In this document: in pieces, positions 9,348 to 29,714 of the stretch
Layout: the number at the start of each line of letters is the position of its first letter
Position numbering within the stretch: the first letter of the stretch is position 1
Source of the DNA: Sphingopyxis sp.
Lineage (GTDB): Bacteria; Pseudomonadota; Alphaproteobacteria; Sphingomonadales; Sphingomonadaceae
Length of the DNA: 44,060 bases
Direction of reading: 5' to 3'
Assembly (NCBI GenBank): GCA_016793775.1
Contig: JAEULK010000077.1
Span: forward strand, 1-44,060
Notes under the pieces: generated by a model
Seen by the model: only the letters and a program-made list of their open reading frames with translations
The model's database searches: none
Told to the model about the DNA's origin: nothing
Made by a program: the position numbers and the translations under genes

Positions 9348-9358
9348 GGTCCGGGGGC

Positions 9359-12078: not shown

Positions 12079-12093
12079 CAGTCAACTCCCGCC

Positions 12094-12183
12094 ATTAAAT
12101 AGGGACAGTCCCTATTTAATGGAAAGCGGCGCGCACGATCGCCCCGACCGGTCGGAATTAAATAGGGACAGTCCCTATTTAAT
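12094..12183. repeat. pair of 27-bp palindromes (REPIN-like)
   Basis: Two identical copies (12094-12120 and 12157-12183, starts 63 bp apart) of ATTAAATAGGGAC-A-GTCCCTATTTAAT, a perfect palindrome around one base; the first extends to 31 bp with flanking CC/GG. They fill the gap between the glycosyltransferase and FemAB-like genes. Very AT-rich arms contrast with the GC-rich genes around. A second, slightly degenerate pair lies at 21335-21422. Confidence 0.95.
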
Positions 12184-12209
12184 GGCCACGAGGAGTTCGC
12201 CATATCGGT

Positions 12210-14113: not shown

Positions 14114-14157
14114 GCTCTCTCACCTTCAGCGACCCTGAAAGAGCCGACCGGGCGCCG

Positions 14158-15825
14158 TCAGGCGGCCCAGGTCTGCGTCTGCGTCGGGTCGGGCGCGTTC
14201 GCCGGATCGCGTTCGACCCAATCGATCAACAAATCAAGCACCCGGCGCAGCGCGGCATCCTGGTCGGCGATGCGCGCTTCGAGACCCGCGATCTGACGCT
14301 GCAGCGCGACCAGATGATCGTCGTCGATCGGCGCCGCAACGGGCGCTTCGGCTTCGACAGCCGCATCGACCTCGATTTCGGGTTCGACTTCGGATTCGGG
14401 TTCGACCGGCGCGGGTTCGGCAACATCCCCGCCGAGTTCGAGCGTCTCCTCTTCCGCCGTCACCGGCACCCGGTCGGGGTCGGGCGCGATGGTGAAGCGC
14501 GGGGCTTCGGCGGCCGGTTCGGCCTCGACCGGCGCGGCGGCGGCAAGGCCGAGCTGTTCGGCGACGAGCGAGCGCGCTTCGACGAAGTTCGACGCGGCGG
14601 GCGTCGGCGGCAGGATATCGACCTCTTCGAGCGCGGCGCGCATCGACAGGCGTTCGAGACCGAGGATCGGGGCGTCTTCGACCGGCGCGGCGAAAGGTGG
14701 CGGCGCGATCTCGACGCTCTCGATTTCGGGTTCGGCGACCGGCTCGGCGGCGGCGGCCGGCCATTCGAGCGGCGCATCGGCAACCGGCGGGGCGAACGGC
14801 GCCGGACCGGGTTCGACCGACTCCACAACGGGCTCGGGCGCGGGTTCGACGAACGCCTCGACCAGGTCGAGCGGTTCTTCGGCGACCGCCGCTTCGGCCT
14901 CGACCCACATCGTTTCGGGCTTCGGCGCCGGTGCGGCCATGGCCGCGAGCGACGCCACCGGCGCAGGGGCGGGTGGTTGGGGCGCCGGCACCATCGTCTT
15001 CGCGTCGATGCCGCGATCGGCCTCGACCTCGGCGACCACGTCGCGGACATGCTGGCCGGTGATGCGATGCTGCTGCTCGACCGCGCCGAACAGCAGGATG
15101 CGGCTGACCAGCACGTTCAATTTGCGCGGCACGCCTTCGCTATAATCGAAGATTTCCTCGAACGCGTCGGGGCTGAAGCTGGGGTTGCCGGTCCAGCCGA
15201 CCTTGCCGAGGCGGTGGAGGATATAGGGTTCGACCTCCTCGGGCTCCATCGGGTCGAGGTGATGCGTCGCGATCACCCGCTGGCGCAGCTGTTCGAGCTG
15301 CGGCGAGTGAAAGAGCGTCTGGCGAAATTCGGGCTGGCCGAGCAGGAAGATCTGGAGCAGCGAATGGCCGCCGAGCTGGAAGTTCGACAGCATGCGCAGC
15401 TCTTCGAGCGCCGAGATCGCGAGATTCTGTCCCTCGTCGACGATCAGCAGGGTGCGGCGGCCGGCGCGCGCCTGTTCGCGCAGATATTGCTCCATCGAGC
15501 GCAGCAGTTCGGCCTTGCTCTCGCCTTCCCAGTCGAGCCCGAATTGTTCGGCGACCAGGCGCAGCAGGTCGTCGCCCTCGACCTGGGTCGAGACCAGCTT
15601 GACCGCGGTCAGCCGATTGGGGTCGATCGTGTTCATCAGATGGCCGACGAGCGTCGTCTTGCCCGCGCCGACATCGCCGGTGATGACGATGAAGCCTTCG
15701 CCCTGCGCCAGGCCATAGCCGAGATAGGACATCGCCTTGCGGTGGGTGCCGCTCTCGAAATAGAAATTCGGGTCGGGCGTCAGCTGGAACGGGCGTCCCG
15801 TAAGGCCATAATATTGATCGTACAT
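14158..15825 (-). CDS. XrtA-associated AAA ATPase with long acidic tail
   Basis: A 555-aa ExeA/GspA-like ATPase (TIGR03015 type). The AAA domain spans about 1-270: N-terminal YYGLTGRPFQLTPDP, Walker A GDVGAGKTT (50-58), Walker B LLIVDEGQNL (about 125-134) and the LLGQPEFRQTL motif. From about 280 to 515 the chain is low-complexity, rich in Pro, Ala, Glu and Val, followed by a short coiled-coil-like end (QRQIAGLEARIADQDAAL). Such ATPases likely power or regulate EPS export; the tail may be a flexible linker. The ribosome site GGGG sits about 8-12 nt before ATG 15825, immediately inside the edge of a MITE-like repeat. Confidence 0.93.
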   Translation of the reverse strand: MYDQYYGLTGRPFQLTPDPNFYFESGTHRKAMSYLGYGLAQGEGFIVITGDVGAGKTTLVGHLMNTIDPNRLTAVKLVSTQVEGDDLLRLVAEQFGLDWEGESKAELLRSMEQYLREQARAGRRTLLIVDEGQNLAISALEELRMLSNFQLGGHSLLQIFLLGQPEFRQTLFHSPQLEQLRQRVIATHHLDPMEPEEVEPYILHRLGKVGWTGNPSFSPDAFEEIFDYSEGVPRKLNVLVSRILLFGAVEQQHRITGQHVRDVVAEVEADRGIDAKTMVPAPQPPAPAPVASLAAMAAPAPKPETMWVEAEAAVAEEPLDLVEAFVEPAPEPVVESVEPGPAPFAPPVADAPLEWPAAAAEPVAEPEIESVEIAPPPFAAPVEDAPILGLERLSMRAALEEVDILPPTPAASNFVEARSLVAEQLGLAAAAPVEAEPAAEAPRFTIAPDPDRVPVTAEEETLELGGDVAEPAPVEPESEVEPEIEVDAAVEAEAPVAAPIDDDHLVALQRQIAGLEARIADQDAALRRVLDLLIDWVERDPANAPDPTQTQTWAA

Positions 15826-15839
15826 CGATATTCCCCGTC

Positions 15840-16108
15840 AGAGCGTGATGACATGATATTGACCCGCCGCGATTGCCCTGGGACGTTCGCCGGCAAGGAG
15901 TGGCGCGCCGCAGGGGCTGGTTGCCCCTGTCAGCGACATGACGATGCCCGGCGGGCGTCCCAGGGCAACCCCGCAGGGGCTGGCCGATTTTGGCCCATTG
16001 CGGCGTCGCGCGTCACTCACGATGCTTTGGCATCGCGCGCTCCTCGCTCCTTGCACTGGGCCAAAATCGGCTCCGTCTCGGTGGATCAATATCATGTCAT
16101 CACGCTCT
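15840..16108. mobile_element. 269-bp MITE-like structured element
   Basis: Perfect 23-bp terminal inverted repeats (15840-15862 and 16086-16108; outer end AGAGCGTGATGACATG) enclose a non-coding core with further nested inverted repeats: TTGCCCTGGGAC (15873-15884) with its complement (15957-15968), GCCGATTTTGGCCCA (15983-15997) with its complement (16057-16071), and a small hairpin CGATGC-TTTG-GCATCG (16020-16035). No convincing protein is encoded. The right end provides part of the TAG stop of the outer-membrane gene; the left end stops just upstream of the ATPase ribosome site. Non-autonomous transposon is the best reading; a dispersed structural repeat is the alternative. Confidence 0.85.
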
Positions 16109-17843
16109 AAAAATTGTAGCGCAGGCCGACGAGCGCCGAGCCGATGAGCTGGCTGTTGAAGCCGTCCTGGTCGAAGCCGGTGATGCTGGCCGCCGCGCTG
16201 CCGGTCAGGCCGCGCCAGAAGCGCCGCGAATAGACGAGCGAGCCGCCATAGGACTGGACGTCCAAGGCGTTGGGCGCGCCATTGTCGTAATAATTATAGA
16301 AGCCGGCGAGCGAGATGTCGGCGTCGGGGCCAAGCCCGCGTCCGATCGAGGCGAAGAGATAATAATTTTCGTCGATCGTGCCGTTGAGCGCCGCGATGGC
16401 CGACAGCGCCGGGACCAGCAGGCGGCGGCGATCGTAACCGGCGCCGATGCCATAGCTCCAGCCGCCGGCGCGGCTGGTGAAGATGCCCTGCACCCCGCGG
16501 CTGCGGAACTGCGCGCCGGTGGCGTTCGACAGCGCATTGTTGAGGCAACCGCCGCCCTGCGCGCCGAACTGGCAGCTGTTGATGTCGCCGTCGATCGGGT
16601 TGCGCGTCGGGTCGAACTGCGTCGGCAGGCCCGCGAGGCCCGCGGACAGCCCGCGCCCGAAGCTGGAAATGCCGTCATAGACGCCGATCTGGATTTGCGT
16701 CGCATGGCCCGGGCGGTAATAGAAGCTGCCGGTATAGATGGTGTCGCCATAGCGGCGCCCGACGCGCGCGGTGAGCGAGGTGCGGCGGCTGGGCTGCCAC
16801 ATCACGCCCGCGTCCCAGATCAGCCCGTCGGTCTCGAACGCCAGCTGGCGCGGACTGTTCGGGTCGGTGACGAAACGCCCGTTGGCGTCGCGCACGGGAA
16901 TACCGTTCGTATCGACGACCGCATTGCGCTGGCTGATCTCGATATCCTCATAACCGACGCCGCCGAGCAGCGCGACCGTCGGGCCGATCGGCACGGTGAC
17001 GTCGGCGCGGGCATATTTGCCATCGAAGCGCTGATCGAGCTGGCTCGCATCCTCGCGCTGATAGCCGCCCGACACCTGCCAGCCAAAGGGCAGGTCGCCG
17101 GGCTTCTGCCCGACGCTGCCCCAGGCGACATGGTTGGTCGACGAGTTGAAAATATCCTGGCTGAACGCGCCGGGGACGACGGTCGCGGGGGTTTCGACAT
17201 CAACCTTGTTGTAACCGAAGCGATAGCCCGCCCCAACGTCGAGCCCACCGATGCGGCGCGCGAAGGTCGGCCCGGCGTACACCGAATAGACATTGGCAGT
17301 GTTCGATCCGTTGCCGACGAAGATCGTGTCGTCGGCGCCCTGCCCGTCGGCGCGGCTGCGCGTCGCGAGCACTCCTGCCTCGAGATTGAGGCCGCGCGCC
17401 AGTTGGTACCGACCGCGCAGCAGCCCGCTGATCGTATCCGAATCGCCGATATTGCCCGCTTCGCCGATGCGATATTCATAGCGCACGGTCGCGGCGACCT
17501 CGGCCCGGCGCGTCGAAACGACCGCATCGACCCCGGCCGCAAGCCTCGTATAGGTCAGGACATCGCCGTCATTCTTGAGGTCGGCGGTGAGCACCTGGCC
17601 GACTTCGAGATAGGGGGTGATCTCGACGCTGCGCTTGCTGCGGCGTTCGCCGCGCTTCTCGGCCTTGCCGACCTTGCCGGCCTTGCCGCTGTCCGAGGAA
17701 GCGGGCGCGGCGGCGCTGTCGCTGCTGCCGCCGCCGCTTTCGGGGCCGGAAAATTGGGCGTGCGCCGTCGTCGCGGTGCCCGCGAGCAGCAGCGCCGCGA
17801 GCGTCATGACGCCATGGCGGGCGTAAGGGAGAGTGGTGCGCAT
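16107..17843 (-). CDS. XrtA/PEP-CTERM system-associated outer-membrane beta-barrel protein
   Basis: A 578-aa secreted protein: a basic start and hydrophobic stretch GVMTLAALLLAGTATTAHA give a Sec signal peptide (cut near residue 29), then a Ser/Gly/Ala/Lys-rich segment (about 32-72), then a long alternating beta pattern with many Tyr/Gly/Arg strands (such as VRYEYRIGEAGN, VGAGYRFGYN, VGRRYGDTIY) ending ...VGLRYNF, a terminal Phe typical of outer-membrane barrels. It fits the TIGR03016 group. Likely outer-membrane part of EPS export or anchoring. Follows the kinase gene after 2 bp. Its stop codon overlaps the end of the MITE-like element. Confidence 0.9.
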   Translation of the reverse strand: MRTTLPYARHGVMTLAALLLAGTATTAHAQFSGPESGGGSSDSAAAPASSDSGKAGKVGKAEKRGERRSKRSVEITPYLEVGQVLTADLKNDGDVLTYTRLAAGVDAVVSTRRAEVAATVRYEYRIGEAGNIGDSDTISGLLRGRYQLARGLNLEAGVLATRSRADGQGADDTIFVGNGSNTANVYSVYAGPTFARRIGGLDVGAGYRFGYNKVDVETPATVVPGAFSQDIFNSSTNHVAWGSVGQKPGDLPFGWQVSGGYQREDASQLDQRFDGKYARADVTVPIGPTVALLGGVGYEDIEISQRNAVVDTNGIPVRDANGRFVTDPNSPRQLAFETDGLIWDAGVMWQPSRRTSLTARVGRRYGDTIYTGSFYYRPGHATQIQIGVYDGISSFGRGLSAGLAGLPTQFDPTRNPIDGDINSCQFGAQGGGCLNNALSNATGAQFRSRGVQGIFTSRAGGWSYGIGAGYDRRRLLVPALSAIAALNGTIDENYYLFASIGRGLGPDADISLAGFYNYYDNGAPNALDVQSYGGSLVYSRRFWRGLTGSAAASITGFDQDGFNSQLIGSALVGLRYNF

Positions 17844-17845
17844 GG

Positions 17846-18868
17846 TCAGGCGCCTCCTTGTCCGTAATAGGTTCCGAAGCGGCGGCCACCGGGCGAGAAT
17901 TTGACCCCGTTCAGCAGCAGTTGGATGTGCGGACAGGCGCCCATCAGGCCGATCGCGTCGCGCAGCGCGCCTTCGAGCGTTTCGTCGGCGCGCACCACCA
18001 TGATGAGCTGGCCGACGTGGCCGGCGAGCACCGCGGCGGGCGAAGCCGCCAGCACCGGCGGCGAATCGAGGATGAGGATGCGGCCCGGCGCGCCGGCCTC
18101 GAGCTGCGTCAGCAGCGCCTCGGTGCGGGCGGAGGCGAGCAATTCGGTGTCGTGCGTGTGCCCGGTGCCCGCGGGCATCACCTTCAGCCCCGGGATGTCG
18201 GTCTGGATCAAACAGTCGCCGAGCGGCAGATGCGGGTCGGCGAGCGCGTCCATCAGGCCGGGGCCGTCCTCCAGCCCGAGCGCCGCGATGACGCTGGGCT
18301 TGGCGATGTCGGCATCGATCAGCAGCACGTCGTGATCGGTCTCGACCGCGAGGCTGAGCGCGAGATTGACCGCCGAAAAGGTCTTGCCCTCGCCCGGATT
18401 GGCCGAACCGATCAGCACGCGGTGGCCGCGCGGCAGCACCGGGCGGCCGGGGCCGCCGGTGAAGTTGCGGATGATCTCGCGCTTCACGATGCGATATTCT
18501 TCGCTGATCCCGGTCACCGCGGCGCCCGGCACGATCATGCCGCGCGCGGCGAGCCGCTCGCGGTCGATCGTGCCCTGGCGGCTCGGCACCACGGCGGGCG
18601 CGGCGCGGGCGATATCCTTGCGCGGCGACACCTTCGGCGCGGGTTCGACGACCGGCGGGGTTTCGACGACAGGGTCGAGGATTTCGGCCTGCGGTGTCGC
18701 GGGCGCTTCGGGCTCGGCCTTTTTCTTGGCCTTGCCCTTGCGGGCCGGCTCTTCGGGCAGCGCCGACAGGTCGATCGTCGGCGCACCGGCGGCGGGATCG
18801 GTGCCGAACAGGTCGGCGGCGCGTTCCAGCAGCGAAGGCGTGCGCTTGACGGGGCGGTGTTCGTTCAT
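17846..18868 (-). CDS. XrtA-associated tyrosine autokinase (BY-kinase)
   Basis: A 340-aa cytoplasmic BY-kinase-like protein (TIGR03018 type). Residues 1-110 are a Pro/Lys/Glu-rich linker; the kinase domain has Walker A GSANPGEGKT (154-163, Lys162), Walker A' LLIDADIAKPS (from about 183) and Walker B RILILDSPP. The C-terminal end GTYYGQGGA holds only two adjacent tyrosines, a short version of the Tyr cluster used for autophosphorylation. It works with the chain-length protein encoded 11 bp upstream to control polymer length. ATG at 18868; only 2 bp before the outer-membrane gene. Confidence 0.93.
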   Translation of the reverse strand: MNEHRPVKRTPSLLERAADLFGTDPAAGAPTIDLSALPEEPARKGKAKKKAEPEAPATPQAEILDPVVETPPVVEPAPKVSPRKDIARAAPAVVPSRQGTIDRERLAARGMIVPGAAVTGISEEYRIVKREIIRNFTGGPGRPVLPRGHRVLIGSANPGEGKTFSAVNLALSLAVETDHDVLLIDADIAKPSVIAALGLEDGPGLMDALADPHLPLGDCLIQTDIPGLKVMPAGTGHTHDTELLASARTEALLTQLEAGAPGRILILDSPPVLAASPAAVLAGHVGQLIMVVRADETLEGALRDAIGLMGACPHIQLLLNGVKFSPGGRRFGTYYGQGGA

Positions 18869-18879
18869 GTCATTACCCC

Positions 18880-20430
18880 TCAGGCGACCATGCCGCGCTG
18901 GACGAATTCGGCGACGAGCAGCAGCACGAACAGCGCCACCAGCGCCCCGCCGCCGCCCGCGAGCCAGACGAGCTTCTTCTTGCGATCGGCCTGGCGATCG
19001 GGGGTCACGACCTCGGTGATCGAGCCGATGACCGGCAGGCCGCTGGCGCGTTCGAGCTTCGATGCGGTGGCATAGCTGGTGCGCACCTGGCCGAGGCCGA
19101 AGGCCACGCCGATGCCGCCGCCGATGCCGGCGAACAGGACGAGGGTCAGGAACATCGGCCGGTTCGGCGCCGAGGGCGCGGTCGGCTTCGTCGGCGGGTC
19201 GATCAGGTCGATCTTGATCGCGTCAGTTTCGGTCTGCACATCGCCGCGCAGCCGGACCTGCTCGCGCTGCGCCATCAGCCGGTCGTATTGCGCCTTCAGC
19301 GCGGTATATTCGCCGTTGATCCGCTCATATTCAGCGGCAACGCCGGGGTTCTGGATCTGCGCGGTGGTGATCTGGTTGATGTCGCCCGTCAGCTGCGCCT
19401 TGCGCGCGCTGAGCGCCGACACCGTCGCCTGCCGTTCGGCGCGCATCGCGGCGAGTGTCGCATAGGCGGGGTTCTGTGCATTGCCGCCGCCCCCGCCGCC
19501 GGTCCCTTCGCGGTCGGCCATGGCTTTGAGCGACGCGATCTGGCTTTTCAGCGCGACGACGTCGGGGTGCGCGTCGGTCAGCCCGCGCGCGCGCATCGAC
19601 GACAATTCGGCCTGCGCGCCGGCCAGCTGCTGGCGCGCGACGCCGCCGCCGGTGGCGTTGAGGCCGGGGACGTTGATCGTCGCCGGCGTGGTCGCCATCT
19701 GGCCGTTGGCGGCGGCGAGCGCACCTTGCGCGGCGGCGAGCTGGGTCTCGATCTGACCGAGTTCGGCGCGCGCCTGATCGATGCGCTGGCCGGGCGAGCC
19801 GGTGCCGCTGGAGATCAGGCCGATATTCTTCGCCTCGAAGGCAGCACGGCGCGCCTCGACCGCACCGATCGCCTTTTCACGGTCGGCGAGCTGGGCGTCG
19901 AGGAACTTCAGCCCCTCGCGCGCGGTCATCCGGCCGCCGCGCAATTGCTCGTCGCGGAACACGGTTATCAGGCTGTCGAGCACACCCGATGCCAGCTTGG
20001 CATTGTCGGCGTCGGACAGGCTGCCGACCCCGATCGACGAGGTGATCTCGAAGATATTTTCCTGCTGCGGGACGACCTTGATATTCTTTTGCAGCATCGC
20101 GACCGCGCCGGCCTTTTCGCGCTCGCCGGCGCCGGCGGGCAGCATCCCGGTGGTCACCGCGACCTTTTCGAGATTGCGCGCGCTGGTCAGCGTTTCGCGG
20201 ATCTGGTCGATCTGCGAGCGATCGGCATAGGGGCCGCCGCTCTGCGCGTCGGCCGGGATGATCTCGTTGATGTCGACGAGCAGCCGCGCGCGCGAATCAT
20301 AGCGGTTGGGGATCGACGCGATCGCCAGCCAGCCGAGGATGCAGATGCCCCAGGCGACGCCCAGAACCAGCCAGCGGCGCGTCCAGACGCTGTGCAGCGC
20401 CACCCGGAATTCGTCGTAAAGGCCGTTCAT
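18880..20430 (-). CDS. XrtA system polysaccharide chain-length determinant (Wzz/GumC-like)
   Basis: A 516-aa polysaccharide co-polymerase (TIGR03007 type). A first membrane helix (about 20-38, LVLGVAWGICILGWLAIA) follows a short cytoplasmic start; a large periplasmic part with coiled-coil stretches (about 170-400) follows; then a hydrophobic segment (about 432-452, LTLVLFAGIGGGIGVAFGLG) and a final one (about 487-505). The pattern fits Wzz proteins that set chain length together with a BY-kinase. An LRGD...DPPTKP stretch before the second helix is characteristic of the family. Located 52 bp after the export lipoprotein gene and 11 bp before the kinase gene. Confidence 0.93.
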   Translation of the reverse strand: MNGLYDEFRVALHSVWTRRWLVLGVAWGICILGWLAIASIPNRYDSRARLLVDINEIIPADAQSGGPYADRSQIDQIRETLTSARNLEKVAVTTGMLPAGAGEREKAGAVAMLQKNIKVVPQQENIFEITSSIGVGSLSDADNAKLASGVLDSLITVFRDEQLRGGRMTAREGLKFLDAQLADREKAIGAVEARRAAFEAKNIGLISSGTGSPGQRIDQARAELGQIETQLAAAQGALAAANGQMATTPATINVPGLNATGGGVARQQLAGAQAELSSMRARGLTDAHPDVVALKSQIASLKAMADREGTGGGGGGNAQNPAYATLAAMRAERQATVSALSARKAQLTGDINQITTAQIQNPGVAAEYERINGEYTALKAQYDRLMAQREQVRLRGDVQTETDAIKIDLIDPPTKPTAPSAPNRPMFLTLVLFAGIGGGIGVAFGLGQVRTSYATASKLERASGLPVIGSITEVVTPDRQADRKKKLVWLAGGGGALVALFVLLLVAEFVQRGMVA

Positions 20431-20482
20431 CGTCTGGTCTTCGTCCTTGGCAAGCTAGGGGTGTTCGCAGCGCAACCGCGCG

Positions 20483-21142
20483 TCAGAACATGCTTTCGGG
20501 AATGATGATCACGTCGCCCGGCTGGAGCCGGACGTTCGCCTTGATGTCGCCGCGCTTGACGAGGTCGTTGAGGCGCAGGCCATATTCCTGCTGCTTGCCC
20601 GACCCCTTGTCGTAACGGACGAGGCGCGCCTTGTTGCCCGCGGCATATTCGCCGAGCCCGCCGACCGCGATCATCGCGTCGAGCACGGTCATATTGGCGC
20701 GGAACGGGATCGACGCGGGCTTTTCGGTCGCGCCGACGACGCGCACCTGCTGCGAGAAGGTGCTGTTGAAGCTGGTGACGATGACGCTGACGATCGGGTC
20801 GTTGATATACTGGCTAAGCTGGAGCTTCAGGTCCTGCTGGAGCATCGTCGGGGTCTTGCCGACCGCCGGCATGTCGGTGATCAGCGGGGTGGTGATGCGA
20901 CCGTCGGGGCGCACCTGAACCTTGCCGCCCAGCTCGGGGTTGCGCCACACGAAGATCTGAAGCTCATCGAGCGGGCCGATGATATATTCCTCGCCCGGCC
21001 CTTCCTGATTCTGCACGAAATTCGCGCTCGGCAGCTGCGGCGCGGCACCGCCGCCGCCCATGCAGCCGGTCAGCGCGGTCGCGGCGATGCCCGAAACCAG
21101 GGCCACGCGCGCGGCGCGAAGGGCGGGGAAGGACGTCATCAT
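20483..21142 (-). CDS. XrtA-associated polysaccharide export lipoprotein (Wza-like)
   Basis: A 219-aa exporter subunit (TIGR03027 type). The signal peptide ends in lipobox LTGC with Cys27, so it is a predicted lipoprotein. The Poly_export domain (about 53-125: EEYIIGPLDELQIFVWRN, GGKVQVRPDGRITTPLI) and one SLBB repeat (about 130-215, ending VRLQPGDVIIIPESMF) form the periplasmic/outer-membrane channel part. Two consecutive ATGs start the gene; the first (21142) is taken because GGTG lies about 5 nt upstream of it. First gene of the minus-strand EPS arm; promoter expected in 21143-21330. Confidence 0.93.
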   Translation of the reverse strand: MMTSFPALRAARVALVSGIAATALTGCMGGGGAAPQLPSANFVQNQEGPGEEYIIGPLDELQIFVWRNPELGGKVQVRPDGRITTPLITDMPAVGKTPTMLQQDLKLQLSQYINDPIVSVIVTSFNSTFSQQVRVVGATEKPASIPFRANMTVLDAMIAVGGLGEYAAGNKARLVRYDKGSGKQQEYGLRLNDLVKRGDIKANVRLQPGDVIIIPESMF

Positions 21143-21466: not shown

Positions 21467-22696
21467 TCAAACCAGCATTTCCCTCGCCGGGCCTTGGCCC
21501 AGAAAGGCCGAGGGGCTGGCGGTGGCGCCATAAGCGCCGGCCTGGAAGATCGCCACAAGATCGCCGACCTCGCCGCGCGGCAGCGCGACCTGGTCGCCCA
21601 GCCGGTCCAAGGGCGTGCAGAGACAGCCCACGACCGACACGGTCTCGACGGGTTCGGCGCCGAACTGGCTGGCGAGCGCGATCGGATAGTTGCGGCGGAT
21701 GACGGTGCCGAAATTGCCGCTCGCGGCGAGCTGGTGGTGGAGCCCGCCGTCGGTGACGAGGAAGGTGTCGCCATGGCTCACTTTCCGGTCGACGATGCGG
21801 GTCAGATAGACCCCCGCCTCGGCGACGAGCCAGCGGCCGAGTTCCATCGCGAAGCGGCTCGCCCCCAGCATCGGGTCGCGCGCGCTCAATGTCTTCGCCA
21901 AGGCGTCGCCGACCGCCTTGGCATCGACCGCCGTATCGCCGGGGAAATAGGGTACGCCCATGCCCCCGCCCAGATTGACCAGCGGCGGCACCGCGCCGAT
22001 CTCGTTGGCGAGCCGCGCCGCGAGCGCCACCGTCTGCGCCTGTGTGTCGGCGATGGCCGCGGCATCAAGTGCCTGCGATCCCGCGAAAATATGGAAGCCC
22101 TGCCAGTCGGCGCCCGCATCCAGCAGCCGCGTGACCAGCGCCGCGACCTCGGCGGCATCGACCCCGAAAGGCTTGGCGCCGCCGCCCATCTTCATGCCCG
22201 ATCCCTTGAGGTCGAAGTCGGGGTTCACGCGCACCGCGAGCCGCGGGACGACGCCCAGCCGCGCCCCGATCGCCAGCGCGCGCTCGGCCTCGCCCGCCGA
22301 TTCGAGGTTGAGCGTCGCGCCGACCTTGATCGCATATTCGAGTTCGCGGTCGCGCTTGCCCGGCCCGGCGAAGCTGATGTGCCCCGTCGCCATGCCGCTG
22401 GTCCGCGCCGCCTGAAGCTCGCCGCCCGAGGCTACGTCGAGCCCGTCGACCATCATCGCCATATGACCGAGCAGCGGGCCATAGGGGTTCGCCTTCATCG
22501 CGTAATGAAGCCGCAATTCGGACGGCATCGCCGCGCGCCATTCGGCAACGCGCGCGGTCAACATCTTCGAATCATAGACGAAGAGCGGCGTGTCGCCGGC
22601 ATCCTCGGCGAGGTCGTCGGCGCGCTGGCCGCCGATCAGCAGCATACCGTCACTGTCGGCGGTAAAGCCCGGCGGGATCGGACCATGCGGTTTCAT
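21467..22696 (-). CDS. PLP-dependent decarboxylase, exosortase A system-associated
   Basis: A 409-aa fold-III (alanine-racemase-like) PLP enzyme of the ornithine/DAP decarboxylase group, TIGR03099 type. The Schiff-base lysine is Lys68 in HYAMKANPYG. Further motifs are VASGGELQAA, NLGGGMGVPYFPGD (PLP phosphate region), ELGRWLVAEAG and the dimer-contributed VVGCLCTPLDRLGD with the catalytic Cys. The substrate is not known; an amino acid or an aminoacyl-carrier conjugate is plausible given the neighbours. ATG 22696 is taken because it overlaps the ligase stop by 4 bases. Second of a two-gene minus unit. Confidence 0.94.
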   Translation of the reverse strand: MKPHGPIPPGFTADSDGMLLIGGQRADDLAEDAGDTPLFVYDSKMLTARVAEWRAAMPSELRLHYAMKANPYGPLLGHMAMMVDGLDVASGGELQAARTSGMATGHISFAGPGKRDRELEYAIKVGATLNLESAGEAERALAIGARLGVVPRLAVRVNPDFDLKGSGMKMGGGAKPFGVDAAEVAALVTRLLDAGADWQGFHIFAGSQALDAAAIADTQAQTVALAARLANEIGAVPPLVNLGGGMGVPYFPGDTAVDAKAVGDALAKTLSARDPMLGASRFAMELGRWLVAEAGVYLTRIVDRKVSHGDTFLVTDGGLHHQLAASGNFGTVIRRNYPIALASQFGAEPVETVSVVGCLCTPLDRLGDQVALPRGEVGDLVAIFQAGAYGATASPSAFLGQGPAREMLV

Positions 22697-24216
22697 GCCG
22701 CGACCTTCCATCCAGCGGCGATCGCGACGCGGTCGAGCTTGCCATTGGGGTTGCGGGGCAGTTCGCTGCGCCATTCGATCGCCTGCGGCTGCATGAAATT
22801 GGGCAGGTTCGCCTTCAGATACGCCGCCAGCGCATCGGGATCGCTCTCCCCCTTGCCGCGCACGATCAGCACGATCGCGGCGCCCAGCCGTTCATCGGGC
22901 ACGCCGAACGCCACCGCCTCGAAGATCAGGCCCGAGGCGGTGGCGACATCCTCGACCTCGGTCGGGCTGACGCGGTTGCCTGCGGTCTTGATCATCGCGT
23001 CGTCGCGGCCGACGAAATAGAGCAGCCCGTTGGCGTCGCGGCGCACCGTGTCGCCCGACCACACCGCCAGGCCGCCATAGTGCGACGCACGCGGCGCGGG
23101 CCTGAAGCGCTGGGCGGTGCGCGCCGCATCCTGCCAATAACCCTGTGCGACCAGCGGCCCGCAATGGACCAGCTCGCCCGGTTCCTCGTCGGCGGTGATC
23201 GTCCCGTCGGCGCGGCATACCAGAATTTCGGCATGCGGGATCGCCTGGCCCATCGAGGTCGGATGATCGGCGACGAGCTTGGGCGGCAACCAGGTCGAGC
23301 GGAACGCCTCGGTCAGCCCGTACATCGGATAGATGTCGGCGTTCGGAAAGGTCGCGGCCATCGCGTCGATCAGCGAAGGCGTCAGCGCGCCGCCGCTGTT
23401 GGTCAGGCGCCTGAGGTGCGCCGCACTTTCGGCGGGCCACTCGCTCTCGACGAGCTGCACCCACAGCGGCGGCACGCCGGCCAGCGTGGTAGCGCCATGC
23501 CGCGCGACCGCCTTCACGACGTCGCGCGGGGTCAGATAGTCGAGCGGCGCCACCGCCGCCCCCGCATACCAGGCCGAGAGCAGCTGATTCTGGCCATAGT
23601 CGAAGCTGAGCGGCAACACCGCGAGCACACGGTCCTCGGGAACGAGCTTCAGATAATCGGCGACCGCCTCCGCCCCGAGCCACAGATTGGCATGGCTGAG
23701 CATCACCCCCTTGGGGCGCCCGGTCGAGCCGCTGGTGTAGAGGATGGCCGCGAGGTCGCGGGGTTCGGCGAGCGACGGCGGCAGCCCCTGCCCACCCGAA
23801 TCAATGACTTCCTCGGCGACCTTGAGATCCTGCACGACGCAGTCGACCGGCAGCCCGCCCCCGAGCGTGTCGCTGCGCGCCGCATTGGCGACGAGCAGCT
23901 TCGCCCCGCTGTCGCTGAGGATATGCGCGACCTGCGGCGCCTTGAGCAGCGGATTGACCGGCACATGGATCAGCCCCGCGCGCGCCGCGGCCAGCGGCAT
24001 CAGGCAGGCCAGCCGCATCTTGGCGCTCCAGCTCGCGACGCGTTCGCCGGGGCCGCCCGCCTGATCGAGCAGCCACGACGCCAGCCGCCCGACGCCGGCG
24101 TCGAGCTCGGCGAAACTCGTGACCTTGTCGCCGATCAGCAGCGCGGGATCGACCGCCGCACCGCAAAGGGCGAGATGGTCGATCGGGCGCGACGATGGGA
24201 TTAGGGTCTCGGTCAT
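22693..24216 (-). CDS. AMP-forming acyl-CoA ligase, exosortase A system-associated
   Basis: A 507-aa ANL-superfamily adenylating enzyme (TIGR03098 type). It has the P-loop-like AILYTSGSTGRPKGVMLSH (about 157-175), the MYGLTEAFRSTWLPP region (about 297-311), SGDTVRRDANGLLYFVGRDD and the C-terminal PRNPNGKLDR with the catalytic Lys. It should activate a carboxylate as an AMP ester and pass it to a thiol, either CoA or the acyl carrier protein encoded about 1 kb away. ATG at 24216; the divergent acetyltransferase gene starts about 18 bp away, so promoters must overlap coding sequence. Confidence 0.94.
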   Translation of the reverse strand: MTETLIPSSRPIDHLALCGAAVDPALLIGDKVTSFAELDAGVGRLASWLLDQAGGPGERVASWSAKMRLACLMPLAAARAGLIHVPVNPLLKAPQVAHILSDSGAKLLVANAARSDTLGGGLPVDCVVQDLKVAEEVIDSGGQGLPPSLAEPRDLAAILYTSGSTGRPKGVMLSHANLWLGAEAVADYLKLVPEDRVLAVLPLSFDYGQNQLLSAWYAGAAVAPLDYLTPRDVVKAVARHGATTLAGVPPLWVQLVESEWPAESAAHLRRLTNSGGALTPSLIDAMAATFPNADIYPMYGLTEAFRSTWLPPKLVADHPTSMGQAIPHAEILVCRADGTITADEEPGELVHCGPLVAQGYWQDAARTAQRFRPAPRASHYGGLAVWSGDTVRRDANGLLYFVGRDDAMIKTAGNRVSPTEVEDVATASGLIFEAVAFGVPDERLGAAIVLIVRGKGESDPDALAAYLKANLPNFMQPQAIEWRSELPRNPNGKLDRVAIAAGWKVAA

Positions 24217-24233
24217 TGGCTGTTAGGAGTCCG

Positions 24234-25268
24234 GTGATAGAGCGCCAGCCTATGCAAGGGAACGGTGAACATCGCGCTAATGATGACGCGGGGCTGCCCG
24301 CCGACGCGCGCGCGGCTGGCTTCGCGTCGCCGTTCGACCGCGCAATGTGGTTCGACTTGCTGGCGGCGCACGGCTTTGCCGGCGAAGGGCGGGTCGATGC
24401 GCGGGCGACCGTGGAGTCGGTCACCGCCTGGCTGCCGCTGCGCCGCGAAAAGGGCGGCGCACTCAGCGGCCTCGCCAATTGGTACAGCTTCTCTATCCGT
24501 CCCTTGTTCACCGGTCCGGCACATCCCGGCGCGCGCAGCGCCGCGTTGCAGGCGCTTTTCGCGGGACTGCGCCGGAAAGCGGCGCGGCTGACGCTTTACC
24601 CCGTACCCGAGATCGAGGGGGTGAATGGCGACGTCGAGATCGCCCTGCGCGCCGCCGGCTGGTGGGTGAAAGCAACGCCCGCCGGCGACCGCCACTGGCT
24701 CGACTTGGCCGGCATGACCCATGACGACTGGTGGGAAAGCCGCCCCGGCGCGCTCAAGAACACCGTCAAGCGCAAGGCGAAGAAAGGCGTCGTCGATATC
24801 CAGCTGCTCACCCAGTTCGACCCCGGCAGCTGGGCGGCCTATGAAAGCATCTATGCCGCGAGCTGGAAACCCGAGGAGGGCGACCCCGCGCTGCTACGCG
24901 CCTTTGCCGAGGCGGAGAGCTGGCGCGGCACCTTCCGCATGGGGATTGCGCGGATCGAGGGCATCCCGGTCGCCGCGCAATATTGGACGGTCGAGGACGG
25001 CACCGCCTTCATCCACAAGCTCGCGCATGTCGAGGACAGTCTGAAGGCCTCGCCCGGCACCCTGCTGTCGGCCGCCCTGTTTCGCCATGTGATCGAGATC
25101 GACGGCGTCAAACGCGTCGATTTCGGGACCGGCAACGACGGCTACAAAAAGGACTGGATGAACCGCCACGAGCGGCTGTGGCGATTGGAGGCTTTCAATC
25201 CGGCGCGCATCGCGGCATGGGAACCCGCGATAAAGGCTTTTGCGCGCTCGAAGCTGGGGCGCGAGTGA
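24234..25268 (+). CDS. GNAT/FemAB-like acetyltransferase of the XrtA module
   Basis: A protein of about 344 aa with the Acetyltransf_6 layout: an N-terminal half with SPFDRAMWFDLL and SFSIRPLFTGP, the basic RPGALKNTVKRKAKKG (about 167-182), WKPEEGDPALLRAFAE, and the acyl-donor side AQYWTVEDGTAFIHKLAH and VDFGTGNDGYKKDWM. A GTG at 24234, with AGGAG four bases upstream, is the preferred start; ATG 24252 is an alternative, and an upstream ATG at 24195 would run into the divergent ligase gene. Seven bases later the acyl carrier protein starts, suggesting it acylates using, or together with, that carrier. Substrate unknown. Confidence 0.8.
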   Translation: MIERQPMQGNGEHRANDDAGLPADARAAGFASPFDRAMWFDLLAAHGFAGEGRVDARATVESVTAWLPLRREKGGALSGLANWYSFSIRPLFTGPAHPGARSAALQALFAGLRRKAARLTLYPVPEIEGVNGDVEIALRAAGWWVKATPAGDRHWLDLAGMTHDDWWESRPGALKNTVKRKAKKGVVDIQLLTQFDPGSWAAYESIYAASWKPEEGDPALLRAFAEAESWRGTFRMGIARIEGIPVAAQYWTVEDGTAFIHKLAHVEDSLKASPGTLLSAALFRHVIEIDGVKRVDFGTGNDGYKKDWMNRHERLWRLEAFNPARIAAWEPAIKAFARSKLGRE

Positions 25269-25275
25269 GGATGCG

Positions 25276-25548
25276 ATGACCGATACTCCCGCCAACAGCG
25301 TCGACGCGACGCTCCGCGCGCTGCTCGCCGATATTTTGGGTCTGGGCGACGCCCGCGCCGCGGCGCTGACCGAGGACAGCGGGCTGTTCGGCGAGCTGCC
25401 CGAATTCGATTCGATGGCGGTCGCGACGGTGCTGACCGAGATGGAGGATCGCCTCGGCATCATCATCGACGACGACGAGATCGATGGGGAAATCTTTGAA
25501 ACCTATGGTAATTTGCTGGCCTTTTCGCTGCGCAAAGTGACCGACTGA
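25276..25548 (+). CDS. acyl carrier protein of the XrtA module
   Basis: A 90-aa four-helix carrier protein with LPEFDSMAVATVLTEME, where Ser46 is the predicted 4'-phosphopantetheine site, followed by the typical acidic helix III region (IIIDDDEIDGEIFETYGNLLAF). Compared with fatty-acid AcpP it has FDSMA instead of the usual DSLD pattern, so it is a dedicated carrier. ATG 25276 is chosen for its GAGTGAGG site 5-12 nt upstream; an upstream ATG at 25240 lies inside the acetyltransferase. The likely partner is the AMP-forming ligase. Confidence 0.92.
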   Translation: MTDTPANSVDATLRALLADILGLGDARAAALTEDSGLFGELPEFDSMAVATVLTEMEDRLGIIIDDDEIDGEIFETYGNLLAFSLRKVTD

Positions 25549-25564
25549 CATCGTCCGGGCGCGC

Positions 25565-26233
25565 ATGGGCGAACATCATCTGCGCATCGAACCCGCCGGC
25601 GCACCGCGCGCCACCATCCTGATCGTCCCGCCGCTGTTCGAGGAAGCGAACCGCACGCGCCATACCCTCGTGCTGGCGATGCGCGCGCTGGCCGCGCGCG
25701 GCTTTTCGGCTGTGATGCCCGATCTGCCCGGGCAGAATGAGAGCTTGGTCGCGCTGGAGGATGTCGATCTTGCGGGGTGGCAGGCGGCGCTGGCGGAGGC
25801 TGCGGCGATCATCGACGGGCCTTTGCTGGTGGCATCGGTGCGCGGCGGGTGCCTGATCGATCATAGCATCAAAGCCGCGGGCTGGTGGCGGCTCGCGCCG
25901 GTCGGCGGATCGTCGCTGCTGCGCACCCTGCTCCGCGCGCGCGCGTCGGCCGACCGCGAGGCGGGGGTGACATCGGCGCTCGAAAGCCTCACCGAAACCG
26001 CCAAAAGCGAACCGCTGCTGCTCGCGGGCAACCGCCTGTCGCCCGCGATGATCGCACAGCTCGGCGACGCCGAGGCCCAGCCGGTCGAACCGCTGCGCAG
26101 CGTCGCGCTCGGCGCCGGCGGCATTACGGGCACGCCGTTGTGGCTGCGCGCCGAGCCGGGCGAGGACGCCGCGATGGCCCAGGCGATCGCCGCCGATATC
26201 GCGAACTGGAGCGCGTCATGCGGCGCCATCTGA
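25565..26233 (+). CDS. exosortase A system-associated hydrolase 2 (degenerate alpha/beta fold)
   Basis: A 222-aa alpha/beta-hydrolase-fold protein of the TIGR03101 type. The N-terminal strand and oxyanion region is ILIVPPLFEEANRTRH (about 18-33), then FSAVMPDLPGQNES. At the nucleophile elbow the sequence is ASVRGG (90-95): Arg93 stands where a Ser or Cys would be, so ordinary esterase chemistry looks impossible. This lack of a nucleophile seems to be a family trait (recollected GLRLG motif), not a local mutation. It starts 16 bp after the ACP and overlaps the next hydrolase by 16 bases. It may be a carrier-binding or scaffold partner. Confidence 0.85.
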   Translation: MGEHHLRIEPAGAPRATILIVPPLFEEANRTRHTLVLAMRALAARGFSAVMPDLPGQNESLVALEDVDLAGWQAALAEAAAIIDGPLLVASVRGGCLIDHSIKAAGWWRLAPVGGSSLLRTLLRARASADREAGVTSALESLTETAKSEPLLLAGNRLSPAMIAQLGDAEAQPVEPLRSVALGAGGITGTPLWLRAEPGEDAAMAQAIAADIANWSASCGAI

Positions 26234-27042
26234 GCTTCGCCTGCGAAGGCGCGGCCCTCGCCGCGACGCTCGACGACGCGCCGGGTTCGACCGGCCTGCT
26301 CATCGTTTCGGGCGGCAACGAGATCCGCAGCGGCGCGCATCGCGGCATGGCGATGCTGGCGCAGCGCGTCGCCGAGGCGGGGCATCCGGTCTTCCGCTTC
26401 GACCGCCGCGGCATCGGCGACAGCGAAGGCCGGAACGGCGGCTACCGCGCGAGCGGCCCCGACATAGCGGCAGCGATCGCGACGTTTCGCGAGGCGGCGC
26501 CGCAAGTGACGCGCGTCGCCGCGTTCGGCAATTGCGATGCCGCCAGCGCGCTGCTGCTCCACCAGCCGCTCGCGCTCGGCGCGCTGATCCTGGCCAACCC
26601 CTGGACCTATCAGGACGATTGCGGCGACGACGGCAAGATGGACGAACCCGCCCTGCCCCCGGCGTCGGCGATCCGCTCGCGCTATCTCGCGCGGCTGAAA
26701 GACCCGCGGAGCCTGCTCCGGCTGCTGAAGGGCGAAATCGACCTGAAGAAACTCGCGCGCGGGCTGTCGGCGATGGGCAAGAAACCGGCCGCCCCGGCGT
26801 TCGGCAGCCTCGCCGACGAACTCGACGCGGCGCTGGCCGAGATGTTCTGCCCTGTAACGATCCTCCTCGCAACGGGCGACCGCACCGCGCAGGCCTTCAT
26901 GGAGAAGCTGGCCAAATCGCTCGCCTATATCGAGGCGAATCCGGGATCGATCCGCGTCGAGCGGCTCGCAAGCCTTTCGCACAGCTTCGCGGGGGACGAT
27001 GGGGACTGGCTGGCGGGACGGATTTTGGCGGCGCTGGGCTGA
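26218..27042 (+). CDS. exosortase A system-associated hydrolase 1 (Cys nucleophile)
   Basis: A 274-aa alpha/beta-hydrolase of the TIGR03100 type. Motifs: LLIVSGGNEIRSGAHRG (about 27-43), FRFDRRGIGDSEG (about 59-71) and the nucleophile elbow FGNCDAAS with Cys106 in place of Ser. The final histidine is likely in LASLSHSFAGDDG near residue 258. A Cys nucleophile suits thioester or acyl-transfer chemistry. The ATG at 26218 overlaps the hydrolase-2 end by 16 bases, so the two are co-translated. Last gene of the plus-strand module; a nested inverted repeat begins 8 bp after its stop. Confidence 0.88.
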   Translation: MRRHLSFACEGAALAATLDDAPGSTGLLIVSGGNEIRSGAHRGMAMLAQRVAEAGHPVFRFDRRGIGDSEGRNGGYRASGPDIAAAIATFREAAPQVTRVAAFGNCDAASALLLHQPLALGALILANPWTYQDDCGDDGKMDEPALPPASAIRSRYLARLKDPRSLLRLLKGEIDLKKLARGLSAMGKKPAAPAFGSLADELDAALAEMFCPVTILLATGDRTAQAFMEKLAKSLAYIEANPGSIRVERLASLSHSFAGDDGDWLAGRILAALG

Positions 27043-27049
27043 TACTATT

Positions 27050-27295
27050 TTCGCGCAGAGGCGCAGAGATCGCAGAGAAGAAAGAAAATTTGTTCACGCG
27101 GAGACGCGGAGACGCGGAGAGGTTTTCTCAACCCGTTCGTGCCGATCTTGTCGAAGCACAGTCCTTCTCTTCACCGTCGCTAGAAGAAAGAACGGCCCTT
27201 CGACAAGCTCAGGGCGAACGGATTTTAGATAATCTCCGCGCCGCCGCGTCTCCGCGTGAACCACAATCTCTGCGGCCTCTGCGCCTCTGCGCGAA
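27050..27295. repeat. three-layer nested inverted repeat
   Basis: The outer arms 27050-27077 and 27268-27295 (GCGCAGAGGCGCAGAG type, two mismatches), middle arms about 27093-27120 and 27233-27260 (TTCACGCGGAGACGCGG type), and inner arms about 27132-27159 and 27200-27225 (CCGTTCG...CTTGTCGAAG type) form one nested structure filling the gap between convergent genes. The inner arm resembles a dispersed repeat common in sphingomonads (recollection). It could also serve as a bidirectional terminator. No gene is seen here. Confidence 0.88.
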
Positions 27296-28278: not shown

Positions 28279-28415
28279 GATCGTCTTTCTTTCCCTGTGG
28301 CGGAGCGCACAGATGGGTGTTGCCAATCGCGCTAGCAAGGGACAGGCTGCACGCCAAGGCATGTGTGAGCCGGCGGGGGCTTTACGGGAGTGGCACGCAA
28401 CGAAAGGACGGCGAG
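28279..28415. promoter_or_regulatory. divergent promoter region between trxB and the caspase-like gene
   Basis: A 137-bp gap between divergent starts, so it must contain or overlap both promoters. It has the purine-rich trxB ribosome site (28280-28295, complement) and AAAGGACG before the caspase-like start. I do not see clear -35/-10 boxes. Confidence 0.45.
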
Positions 28416-29714
28416 ATGACGCGTTTCTTTCTACCTCTTTTGACGCTGTTTCTGCTGCTGGCACCGCAAGCCGCCGAGGCGCGCAAGGTCGCGCTGGTGA
28501 TCGGCAATTCGGCCTATGCCAACACCGGCGCGCTGGCGAACCCCGCGAACGATATCAGGATCGTCGCCGATGCGGCCAAAAGCGCGGGCTTCGACGATGT
28601 CGTCGTCGCCAGCAACCTCGGCCATCAGGCGTTCCAGACCACGATGCGCGATTTCCGCGCCAAGGCCGACGGCGCCGACGTCGCGATGGTCTATTTCGCC
28701 GGCCACGGGATCGAGGCGCAGGGCAAGAACTGGCTGCTGCCCACCGACGTGAAGCTCGAATCCGACCTCGACCTCCCCTATGAGGCGATCGAGCTCAACC
28801 GGCTGATGGAGGCGGTGTCGGGGGCGCAAATCCGCATGGTCGTGCTCGACGCGTGCCGCAACAATCCCTTCGGCAGCAAATGGCGCTCCGGCACGCGCGC
28901 GGTGGCGCGCGGCATGGCGGGGGTCGAGGCCGACGATGTACTCGTCATCTTCGCCGCCGCGCCCGGCCAGACCGCGAGCGACGGCAACGGCGCGAACAGC
29001 CCCTTTGCCCTCGCGCTGGCGCGGCGGCTGCCCGAACCCGACCTGCCGGTGCAACTGCTCGGCGGCGCGATCCGCGACGATGTGCTCGCCGCGACCGGCG
29101 GCAACCAGCGGCCCTTCGTCAGCGCCAGCATCACCGGCACGCCGGTCTATCTGGTGCCGCGCACCGTGCCGACCCTCGTCGCGGCCGCGCCGACCGTCCC
29201 CACCGGCGACCGCACCGCGAGCGAGGAGATTTTCTGGAAGGGCGCGCTCGCCGAAAGCAGCGTACGCGCCTTCAGCGCCTATCTGTCGGAATTCCCGAGC
29301 GGGCGCTACGCCGGCGACGCGTCGGACGCGATCGCGCGGCTGCTGACGCCGAGCGCCGACGGCAGCGCGGTGCGCGGCGGCAAATATCGCGTGTCGGATA
29401 TCGTCATCGAGTGCGTCAAGGTGACGGGCTTCCTCGGCCTGCCCGACCAGCTGTTCCTGCGCTTCGGCGGCAGCCAGCGCTTTCCCGAGAGCAAGAAGGA
29501 CAGCTATACGATGAAGAAGGGCCAGCGCTGGGTGGTGCCGCGCAGCTTCGACTTCGACGGCAACTCGACGGTGCAATTGCTGGAGGACGACGACGTCGGC
29601 GGCAACGACATATTGGGGACGATCGATCTGGAGCCCCGCGTGGGGAATTTCACCCGCACGATCAACGGCGACCGGAGCGAGTATAAGGTGACCTATAAGG
29701 TGAGCGCGGAGTAG
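28416..29714 (+). CDS. secreted caspase-like peptidase (C14) with C-terminal C2-like domain
   Basis: A 432-aa protein with a Sec signal peptide (TRFFLPLLTLFLLLAPQAAEA, broken here as positions 2-22). The caspase fold follows: RKVALVIGNSAYAN, the catalytic His97 in YFAGHGIEAQG and Cys147 in VVLDACRNNPF, both intact, so it should be active. After a linker (about 255-320, including an EIFWKGALAESS segment) the last 100 residues hold a beta-rich module with FDFDGNSTVQLLEDDDVGGND, resembling a calcium-binding C2-type loop. Bacterial caspase-like proteins of this layout are exported, and some act in stress or proteolysis; targets are unknown here. ATG 28416 with AAAGGACG upstream. Confidence 0.88.
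   Translation: MTRFFLPLLTLFLLLAPQAAEARKVALVIGNSAYANTGALANPANDIRIVADAAKSAGFDDVVVASNLGHQAFQTTMRDFRAKADGADVAMVYFAGHGIEAQGKNWLLPTDVKLESDLDLPYEAIELNRLMEAVSGAQIRMVVLDACRNNPFGSKWRSGTRAVARGMAGVEADDVLVIFAAAPGQTASDGNGANSPFALALARRLPEPDLPVQLLGGAIRDDVLAATGGNQRPFVSASITGTPVYLVPRTVPTLVAAAPTVPTGDRTASEEIFWKGALAESSVRAFSAYLSEFPSGRYAGDASDAIARLLTPSADGSAVRGGKYRVSDIVIECVKVTGFLGLPDQLFLRFGGSQRFPESKKDSYTMKKGQRWVVPRSFDFDGNSTVQLLEDDDVGGNDILGTIDLEPRVGNFTRTINGDRSEYKVTYKVSAE

Follow-up and report, generated by a model that had tools for sequence, protein, structure and literature searches.

A six-gene block beside an exosortase A locus of Sphingopyxis as a candidate beta-aminoacyl-carrier cassette

The window analysed here, a stretch of 44,060 nucleotides from Sphingopyxis sp. 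(assembly GCA_016793775.1, contig JAEULK010000077.1), is contig C55 of a 3.93 Mb genome in 106 contigs. At positions 21467–27042 it carries a divergent block of six genes, which a preliminary description had read from the letters as a dedicated carrier-protein pathway attached to exosortase A (XrtA). Using sequence, conservation, predicted fold and gene order, we found all six genes in the order and on the strands given there. The minus strand encodes a fold III pyridoxal phosphate (PLP) decarboxylase (21467–22696; 554.1 bits on TIGR03099, curated cut-off 478.45) and an adenosine monophosphate (AMP)-forming ligase (22693–24216; 628.3 bits on TIGR03098, cut-off 592.35), the start of which is assumed to be the first ATG of the frame. 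On the plus strand follow a protein of the GCN5-related N-acetyltransferase (GNAT) type (24252–25268; PF13480), a stand-alone acyl carrier protein (ACP; 25276–25548; PF00550), a protein of the alpha/beta-hydrolase fold termed hydrolase 2 (25565–26233) and an alpha/beta hydrolase termed hydrolase 1 (26218–27042; 211.7 bits on TIGR03100, cut-off 168.45). The genes are indeed as tightly packed as described: decarboxylase and ligase overlap by 4 nucleotides, and hydrolases 2 and 1 by 16. If the first ATG chosen for each frame is right, the divergent starts are only 35 nucleotides apart (24216–24252), so that the two genes would either share a promoter or have each promoter placed within the other gene.

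With its VinN-type pocket, the ligase resembles a loader of amino acids and not a fatty acyl-CoA ligase. A profile of 20 relatives, run against the PDB, gave many adenylation domains of nonribosomal peptide synthetases (NRPS), with LgrA at the top (535 bits in two domains, 244 and 289), followed by the NRPS chain 8xjz_C (453.7 bits) and then by VinN (3wvn, 317.7 bits), the first stand-alone loader in the list. For the pocket region, residues 195–330, VinN is the best PDB match with 52.7 bits, and the next molecule reaches 27.8. The VinN-type pocket residues are present, with Asp230, Ser299 and Arg331 of VinN aligned to D206, S274 and R306 of the ligase; the offset of 16 between the VinN numbering and the PDB sequence is backed by the agreement of all three. 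In two sets of ligases, with some strains in common, D206 and R306 are invariant (20 of 20 and 78 of 78), and the pocket Arg was found in a further 17 of 17 ligases from the class of genome G019. The position of S274 holds Ser in 16, Thr in 3 and Ala in 1 of the smaller set, and Ser in 73 and Thr in 5 of the larger. Seven ligase paralogs of the window genome were fetched; three passed the motif filter and have neither the Asp nor the Arg, and the other four were not picked up. We reject the reading as a fatty acyl-CoA ligase, given the presence of both pocket residues in all aligned relatives and their absence from the three readable paralogs. We predict from the pocket that the enzyme loads the side-chain carboxyl of aspartate, or of a near relative, onto the ACP, which sharpens the earlier proposal that an amino acid is loaded there. 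A VinN-type enzyme leaves the alpha-carboxyl group free, and this suits the needs of a PLP decarboxylase.

The best PDB match of the decarboxylase is BtrK, the L-glutamyl-[BtrI ACP] decarboxylase, with 218.8 bits, compared to 126.5 bits for the best diaminopimelate (DAP) decarboxylase. Scored in reverse, BtrK obtains 371.2 bits on TIGR03099 against 255.7 on the lysA model TIGR01048, while a true LysA (L072) obtains 218 and 484.8, respectively. BtrK shares the motifs GG(L/M)HH..A and LCTPxDxLG with the window decarboxylase and the relatives of the latter, where LysA has AMNDLxRP and CETGD. We reject identity as a DAP decarboxylase on these replaced LysA motifs together with a TIGR01048 score of 216.9 bits, below the cut-off of 297.9. 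In the tree, three LysA sequences grouped apart (100/100) and 14 TIGR03099 members came together (96/81); BtrK itself sits on a long branch and its placement is unsure, so that the kinship is one of motifs and scores and not of a resolved clade. Because the enzyme is BtrK-like, it probably works on a carrier-bound amino acid, as BtrK and VinO do. The amine-forming role suggested for it before is thereby supported and made specific as an on-carrier reaction.

The ACP carries the expected phosphopantetheine site: the preliminary description had named Ser46, and the pair D45-S46 is kept in 21 of 21 aligned sequences; the best PDB match is 2lki with 57.1 bits. The neighbouring GNAT protein had been labelled an acetyltransferase, a label that we correct. 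Its predicted structure is a tandem GNAT closest to the FemX-type aminoacyltransferase fold, with FemX, FemA and Sbb17 ranking above the acetyl-CoA-dependent tandem GNATs by about 4 to 5 Z units, which lowers the acetyl-CoA reading, and we predict from this model that it is a FemX-type aminoacyltransferase. At the sequence level the protein matches PF13480 only: no NCBIfam model was matched at an E value of 0.001, the FemAB family model was not matched, and its sequence profile gave just two chance PDB matches near E 1. Among the relatives K303 (numbered from 24240) is invariant. In Alteraurantiacibacter aquimixticola (L086), GNAT and ACP form one open frame of 442 codons, a fusion that favours the ACP as the aminoacyl donor; the ACP, in place of an aminoacyl-tRNA, is the likely donor.

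The two hydrolases had been called unusual. Hydrolase 1 keeps a Cys106-Asp221-His255 triad (C102/D217/H251 if numbered from 26230), with the Cys in 11 of 11, 31 of 32 (by eye) and 7 of 7 sequences and the Asp and His in 11 of 11 and 32 of 32. Its PDB relatives are weak general alpha/beta hydrolases only. A Cys nucleophile is known in acyltransferases of the alpha/beta-hydrolase fold, such as polyhydroxyalkanoate synthase. One copy of hydrolase 1 (L118:6794-7525) has Gly in place of the catalytic Cys and may be decaying or changed. Hydrolase 2, on the other hand, has no nucleophile. Arg93 stands at the elbow, in 11 of 11 and 28 of 28 aligned sequences and, by eye, in 6 of 6 further loci. In the predicted model (mean predicted local distance difference test, pLDDT, 94.9) R93 follows directly after the strand 87–92, at the start of the next helix, and the fold is an alpha/beta hydrolase with feruloyl esterases and thioesterases as the nearest structures. 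Families TIGR03098 to TIGR03101 had all been assigned to the block; the first three are matched above their cut-offs, whereas hydrolase 2, with 46 bits on TIGR03101, stays far below the cut-off of 202.75, which makes it, by score, a distant and short relative. It is probably a non-catalytic partner. The strict co-occurrence of both proteins in 65 loci, the overlap of their genes, and a single frame in L049 (same phylum, another class) that joins a hydrolase-2-like domain to hydrolase 1 suggest that they form one complex with one active site. In our view, the Cys of hydrolase 1 would accept the ACP-bound aminoacyl group, and the enzyme would then either pass it on or clear wrong loads.

How far the six genes travel together was followed in several samples. 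A named-genome scan with the decarboxylase gave 568 confirmed relatives, and the best 80, all named as Sphingomonadales or as bins named just to class, phylum or "bacterium", make up the Sphingomonadales-type loci; the nearest relatives among them belong to Sphingopyxis strains (decarboxylase identity 82–86%) and, closer still, to an unclassified strain of the Sphingomonadaceae (91%). The ligase lies in the same stretch at all 80. Partner genes were counted in 65 of the 80, those where the sequence ahead of the decarboxylase extends for 6.5 kb or more. There the ACP is a separate frame in 64 and fused to the GNAT in the remaining one, the two hydrolases are both present in 56 and both absent in 9 but never found alone, the GNAT is present in 48, and all five partners of the decarboxylase occur in 43. 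The layout is looser elsewhere. In 19 loci from the class of G019 the fetched stretch holds the ligase in 17, the ACP in 9 and hydrolase 1 in 7, where five stretches are shorter than 11 kb, three of these shorter than 4.3 kb, and contig ends cut several. Within a sample of 249 genomes of the phylum, the ligase is near 13 of the 14 above-cut-off decarboxylases (the window and 13 fetched stretches), L042 being the exception. Loci L053, L056 and L065–L073, with no ligase in the stretch and outside TIGR03099, served as outgroups only and are left out of the counts; L053 and L056 score below the TIGR03099 cut-off, and L072 and L073 are LysA. From the 65-locus counts and the looser layout we conclude that ligase and decarboxylase, mostly with the ACP, are the core, and that the GNAT and the two hydrolases are extras that can be separated from it.

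Downstream of the decarboxylase lies an XrtA-type exopolysaccharide (EPS) cluster (7452–21142, minus strand), which by NCBIfam matches contains an amidotransferase, XrtA, a glycosyltransferase, FemAB, a polysaccharide deacetylase, an ATPase, a kinase (below cut-off), and chain-length and export proteins. XrtA itself (9359–10876, minus strand) is a neighbour outside the module and scores 296 bits on TIGR03109, above the cut-off of 208, and 95.8 bits on TIGR02914, the C-terminal EpsI domain. We searched TIGR03099, TIGR03109 and TIGR03100 in the 249 genomes and in 185 genomes of the class of G019. In the 249 genomes the three families are found above cut-off in 14, 14 and 11, respectively; decarboxylase and XrtA coincide in 12, which include all 11 genomes with hydrolase 1, and in the twelfth (G126) hydrolase 1 scores 166.0 against 168.45. 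The 185 genomes contain XrtA in 33, the decarboxylase in 18 and hydrolase 1 in 14; XrtA accompanies the decarboxylase in 11 of 18 and hydrolase 1 in 12 of 14, and the decarboxylase is above cut-off in 13 of the 14 hydrolase-1 genomes, the copy in the last (G337) being cut by a contig end.

When the samples are pooled, with G019 and G007, which occur in both, counted once, XrtA is found in 22 of 31 decarboxylase genomes, the decarboxylase in 22 of 45 XrtA genomes, and XrtA in 22 of 24 hydrolase-1 genomes, making hydrolase 1 the closest XrtA follower of the module. The strict, dedicated tie to XrtA that had been proposed does not hold. XrtA above cut-off is missing from nine of the 31 decarboxylase genomes, so that the occurrence of the module without xrtA, which the preliminary description had named as an argument against itself, is in part what we see; three of the nine have a weaker exosortase match (G155, 128 bits; G255, 187; G289, 182) and three are less than 90% complete (G255, G347, G403). 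Conversely, 23 of the 45 XrtA genomes have no decarboxylase above cut-off, one of them G337 with its cut copy. The two are strongly, though not strictly, associated, and many genomes carry XrtA but not the module. The PEP-CTERM model TIGR02595 gave no match anywhere, and the controls were likewise without a match; a regex search found no PEP-CTERM-like tail in the window proteins. At L039:15057-17150, downstream of an ACP-hydrolase 2-hydrolase 1 set and a FeeM-type acyltransferase, two adjacent frames carry PEP-CTERM-like tails by regex.

A clue to the substrate comes from L054 in genome G014, where a glutamate mutase E chain and a B12-binding domain are encoded between ligase and decarboxylase (L054:10445-12376; PF06368, 472.5 bits). 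This is the sole copy found in 20 genomes with the decarboxylase or a relative, so that its location is hardly due to chance. The decarboxylase (441.5 bits) and ligase (504.8 bits) of L054 both score below the TIGR cut-offs, the decarboxylase clusters with other below-cut-off copies (98/95), and the sole exosortase match of G014, with 139.5 bits, is under the XrtA cut-off. In the available part of a report on vicenistatin, a glutamate mutase appears to supply 3-methylaspartate (PMC11284099). The L054 set, which belongs to another lineage, probably leads to 3-aminoisobutyryl-ACP. For the window genome no glutamate mutase was found at an E value of 0.001, which makes methylaspartate unlikely there, and we prefer aspartate, giving beta-alanyl-ACP, as the best guess, followed by glutamate, giving gamma-aminobutyryl-ACP.

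Taken together, the block is best explained as a beta-aminoacyl-carrier cassette, a reading to which we assign a probability of roughly 0.62. The ligase, judged by its VinN-type pocket, would activate an amino dicarboxylic acid, most likely L-aspartate, by adenylating its side-chain carboxyl, and would load it onto the phosphopantetheine arm of the ACP. The decarboxylase, by its kinship to BtrK, would then strip the free alpha-carboxyl group on the carrier to give beta-alanyl-S-ACP. Loading of an amino dicarboxylate combined with on-carrier decarboxylation we regard as highly probable from the sequences; that the product is beta-alanine, and not another beta- or gamma-amino acid, is reasonably probable. 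In Sphingomonadales the FemX-fold transferase could subsequently take over the beta-alanyl group of the ACP and attach it, through an amine or hydroxyl group, to a glycan or glycolipid that the neighbouring EPS genes produce. The Cys hydrolase 1, with its non-catalytic partner, may be a second enzyme for off-loading or for proofreading. That the acceptor is a glycan or glycolipid is a tentative assignment that we hold with some doubt, and delivery to EPS or a sorted protein, as suggested before, remains putative. For amino acid substituents of EPS, the open-licence PMC literature searched gave nothing beyond general examples of aminoacylated sugars (PMC3210612). One may even speculate that, in the lineages that carry the cassette, the free primary amine of a beta-alanine on the glycan or glycolipid of the XrtA cluster serves as nucleophile for exosortase A, which would join PEP-CTERM proteins to it. 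In staphylococci, sortase A uses a glycine bridge built by Fem enzymes, and the idea would be a carrier-fed counterpart of that arrangement; given the many XrtA genomes without the module, we consider it highly improbable.

The product could also leave the carrier as a lipid. If the module made an N-acylated beta-alanine lipid, serving as surfactant or anchor lipid, beta-alanyl-ACP would receive a fatty acid on its amino group, either in the way proposed for bolagladin or by a FeeM-type acyl-ACP enzyme, and such chemistry has parallels: the amino group of beta-alanyl-BolC is proposed to condense with a fatty acyl thioester (PMC7756342, in part), and a report cited in the accessible part of PMC7293339 linked N-acyl amino acid synthases to PEP-CTERM loci. 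A FeeM-type gene (PF13444; TIGR03694 above cut-off) stands directly after hydrolase 1 in L039, and TIGR03694 is above cut-off in 10 of 29 genomes searched. However, none of 10 genomes of the window's family, including the window's own, matched TIGR03694 at an E value of 0.001, and the window GNAT is predicted to be closest in fold to FemX-type aminoacyltransferases, which leaves the lipid route rather unlikely. The cassette could instead make gamma-aminobutyryl-ACP from glutamate, as in butirosin biosynthesis, and put it to the same use. The closest PDB relative of the decarboxylase is BtrK, which acts on glutamyl-ACP, but the loader matches the aspartate-type VinN, whereas the butirosin loader BtrJ is an ATP-grasp enzyme, and the L054 relative carries a mutase that makes methylaspartate. 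We consider the glutamate version improbable.

Least probable of all, to the point of being hardly credible, is that the decarboxylase is a free-standing, DAP-like enzyme and that the carboxylic acid loaded by ligase and ACP has nothing to do with it. The 216.9 bits on TIGR01048 and the frequent lack of an ACP near the decarboxylase in the class of G019 would fit, but that score lies below the lysA cut-off, a true LysA obtains 484.8 bits on lysA and 218 on TIGR03099, the LysA motifs are replaced by BtrK-like ones, and the ligase accompanies the decarboxylase at all of the best 80 loci.

Each main step of the proposed cassette has a described counterpart in an antibiotic pathway; the EPS and exosortase setting appears to be new. 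Among the closest is vicenistatin, in which VinN, VinL and VinO provide the Asp230/Ser299/Arg331 ligase pocket, the stand-alone ACP and the on-carrier PLP decarboxylase; there, 3-aminoisobutyrate is fed to a polyketide synthase and, according to the accessible part of PMC11284099, a glutamate mutase, a second ligase and the acyltransferase VinK take part, none of which is among the six genes. The bolagladin enzymes BolO, BolC and BolN of Burkholderia gladioli are proposed, in the part of PMC7756342 available, to load the Asp beta-carboxyl onto a free ACP and to form beta-alanyl-ACP by a BtrK-like decarboxylation, but the product is N-acylated, desaturated and handed to an NRPS. Butirosin (BtrI, BtrJ, BtrK) offers the closest solved decarboxylase and the same on-carrier logic, yet with glutamate as substrate and an aminoglycoside as the destination. 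SB-203208 involves an adenylating enzyme (SbzB), an ACP (SbzG) and a GNAT (SbzC), which was shown in vitro to transfer the ACP-bound aminoacyl group, in small amounts; its acceptor is a small antibiotic, and the passages available of PMC6331615 give no decarboxylase for the residue. FemABX and MprF resemble the window GNAT in predicted fold, but use aminoacyl-tRNA, where the ACP is the likely donor here. In the Dlt system of teichoic acid D-alanylation, a ligase and a carrier protein feed an amino acid to a surface polymer. It differs by the membrane-bound O-acyltransferase (MBOAT) DltB, matched by none of the six proteins, and by having no decarboxylase. In the open-licence PMC literature we found no paper that places these XrtA-associated families in such a pathway, the bolagladin authors' text being unchecked for XrtA families, Haft 2006 (PMC1569441) contains none of six words looked for, and a floc-formation paper (PMC9850573) likewise gave nothing on these genes by the words sought.

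Acyltransferases of other types stand beside such genes elsewhere, an MBOAT in L061 and a PF02522 protein in L055. At L061:4437-10921, ACP, decarboxylase, sulfotransferase, ligase, an unnamed frame and the MBOAT follow in a row, a Dlt-like layout plus a decarboxylase. L060, L062 and L063 each contain three adenylating ligases, small ACP-like frames and a BtrK-like decarboxylase and resemble unexplored natural product clusters; one ligase in each has TECHRC for TEAFRS, near the TECKRI of VinN, and the decarboxylase frames of L062 and L063 exceed 800 codons. Around the block itself, the spacer after hydrolase 1 (27043–27250) shows arginine-rich repeats when read (RRGAEIAEKK, TRRRGDAERF) and is perhaps a dispersed repeat element. 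Beyond a thioredoxin reductase gene, a caspase-like frame (peptidase C14, by eye) lies at 28317–29714, and its cluster has further members in L046 and L056. On the other side, a GNAT-like protein at 6084–7289 with weak kinship to the NCBIfam BspF model (136/775 bits) adjoins the XrtA amidotransferase; a relative of it lies near a ligase-decarboxylase-ACP block in L058 (near 5700), a stretch with no XrtA.

If the cassette operates as proposed, families named only by the company of exosortase A would gain a chemical role that can be tested by simple mass spectrometry. Beta-amino acid chemistry of the antibiotic type would then sit next to genes for surface polymers in common environmental bacteria, whose exopolysaccharide or envelope could be searched for beta-alanine or a near relative. 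Should the amine be the acceptor for sorted proteins, the finding would also bear on the question of the target to which exosortases attach them.

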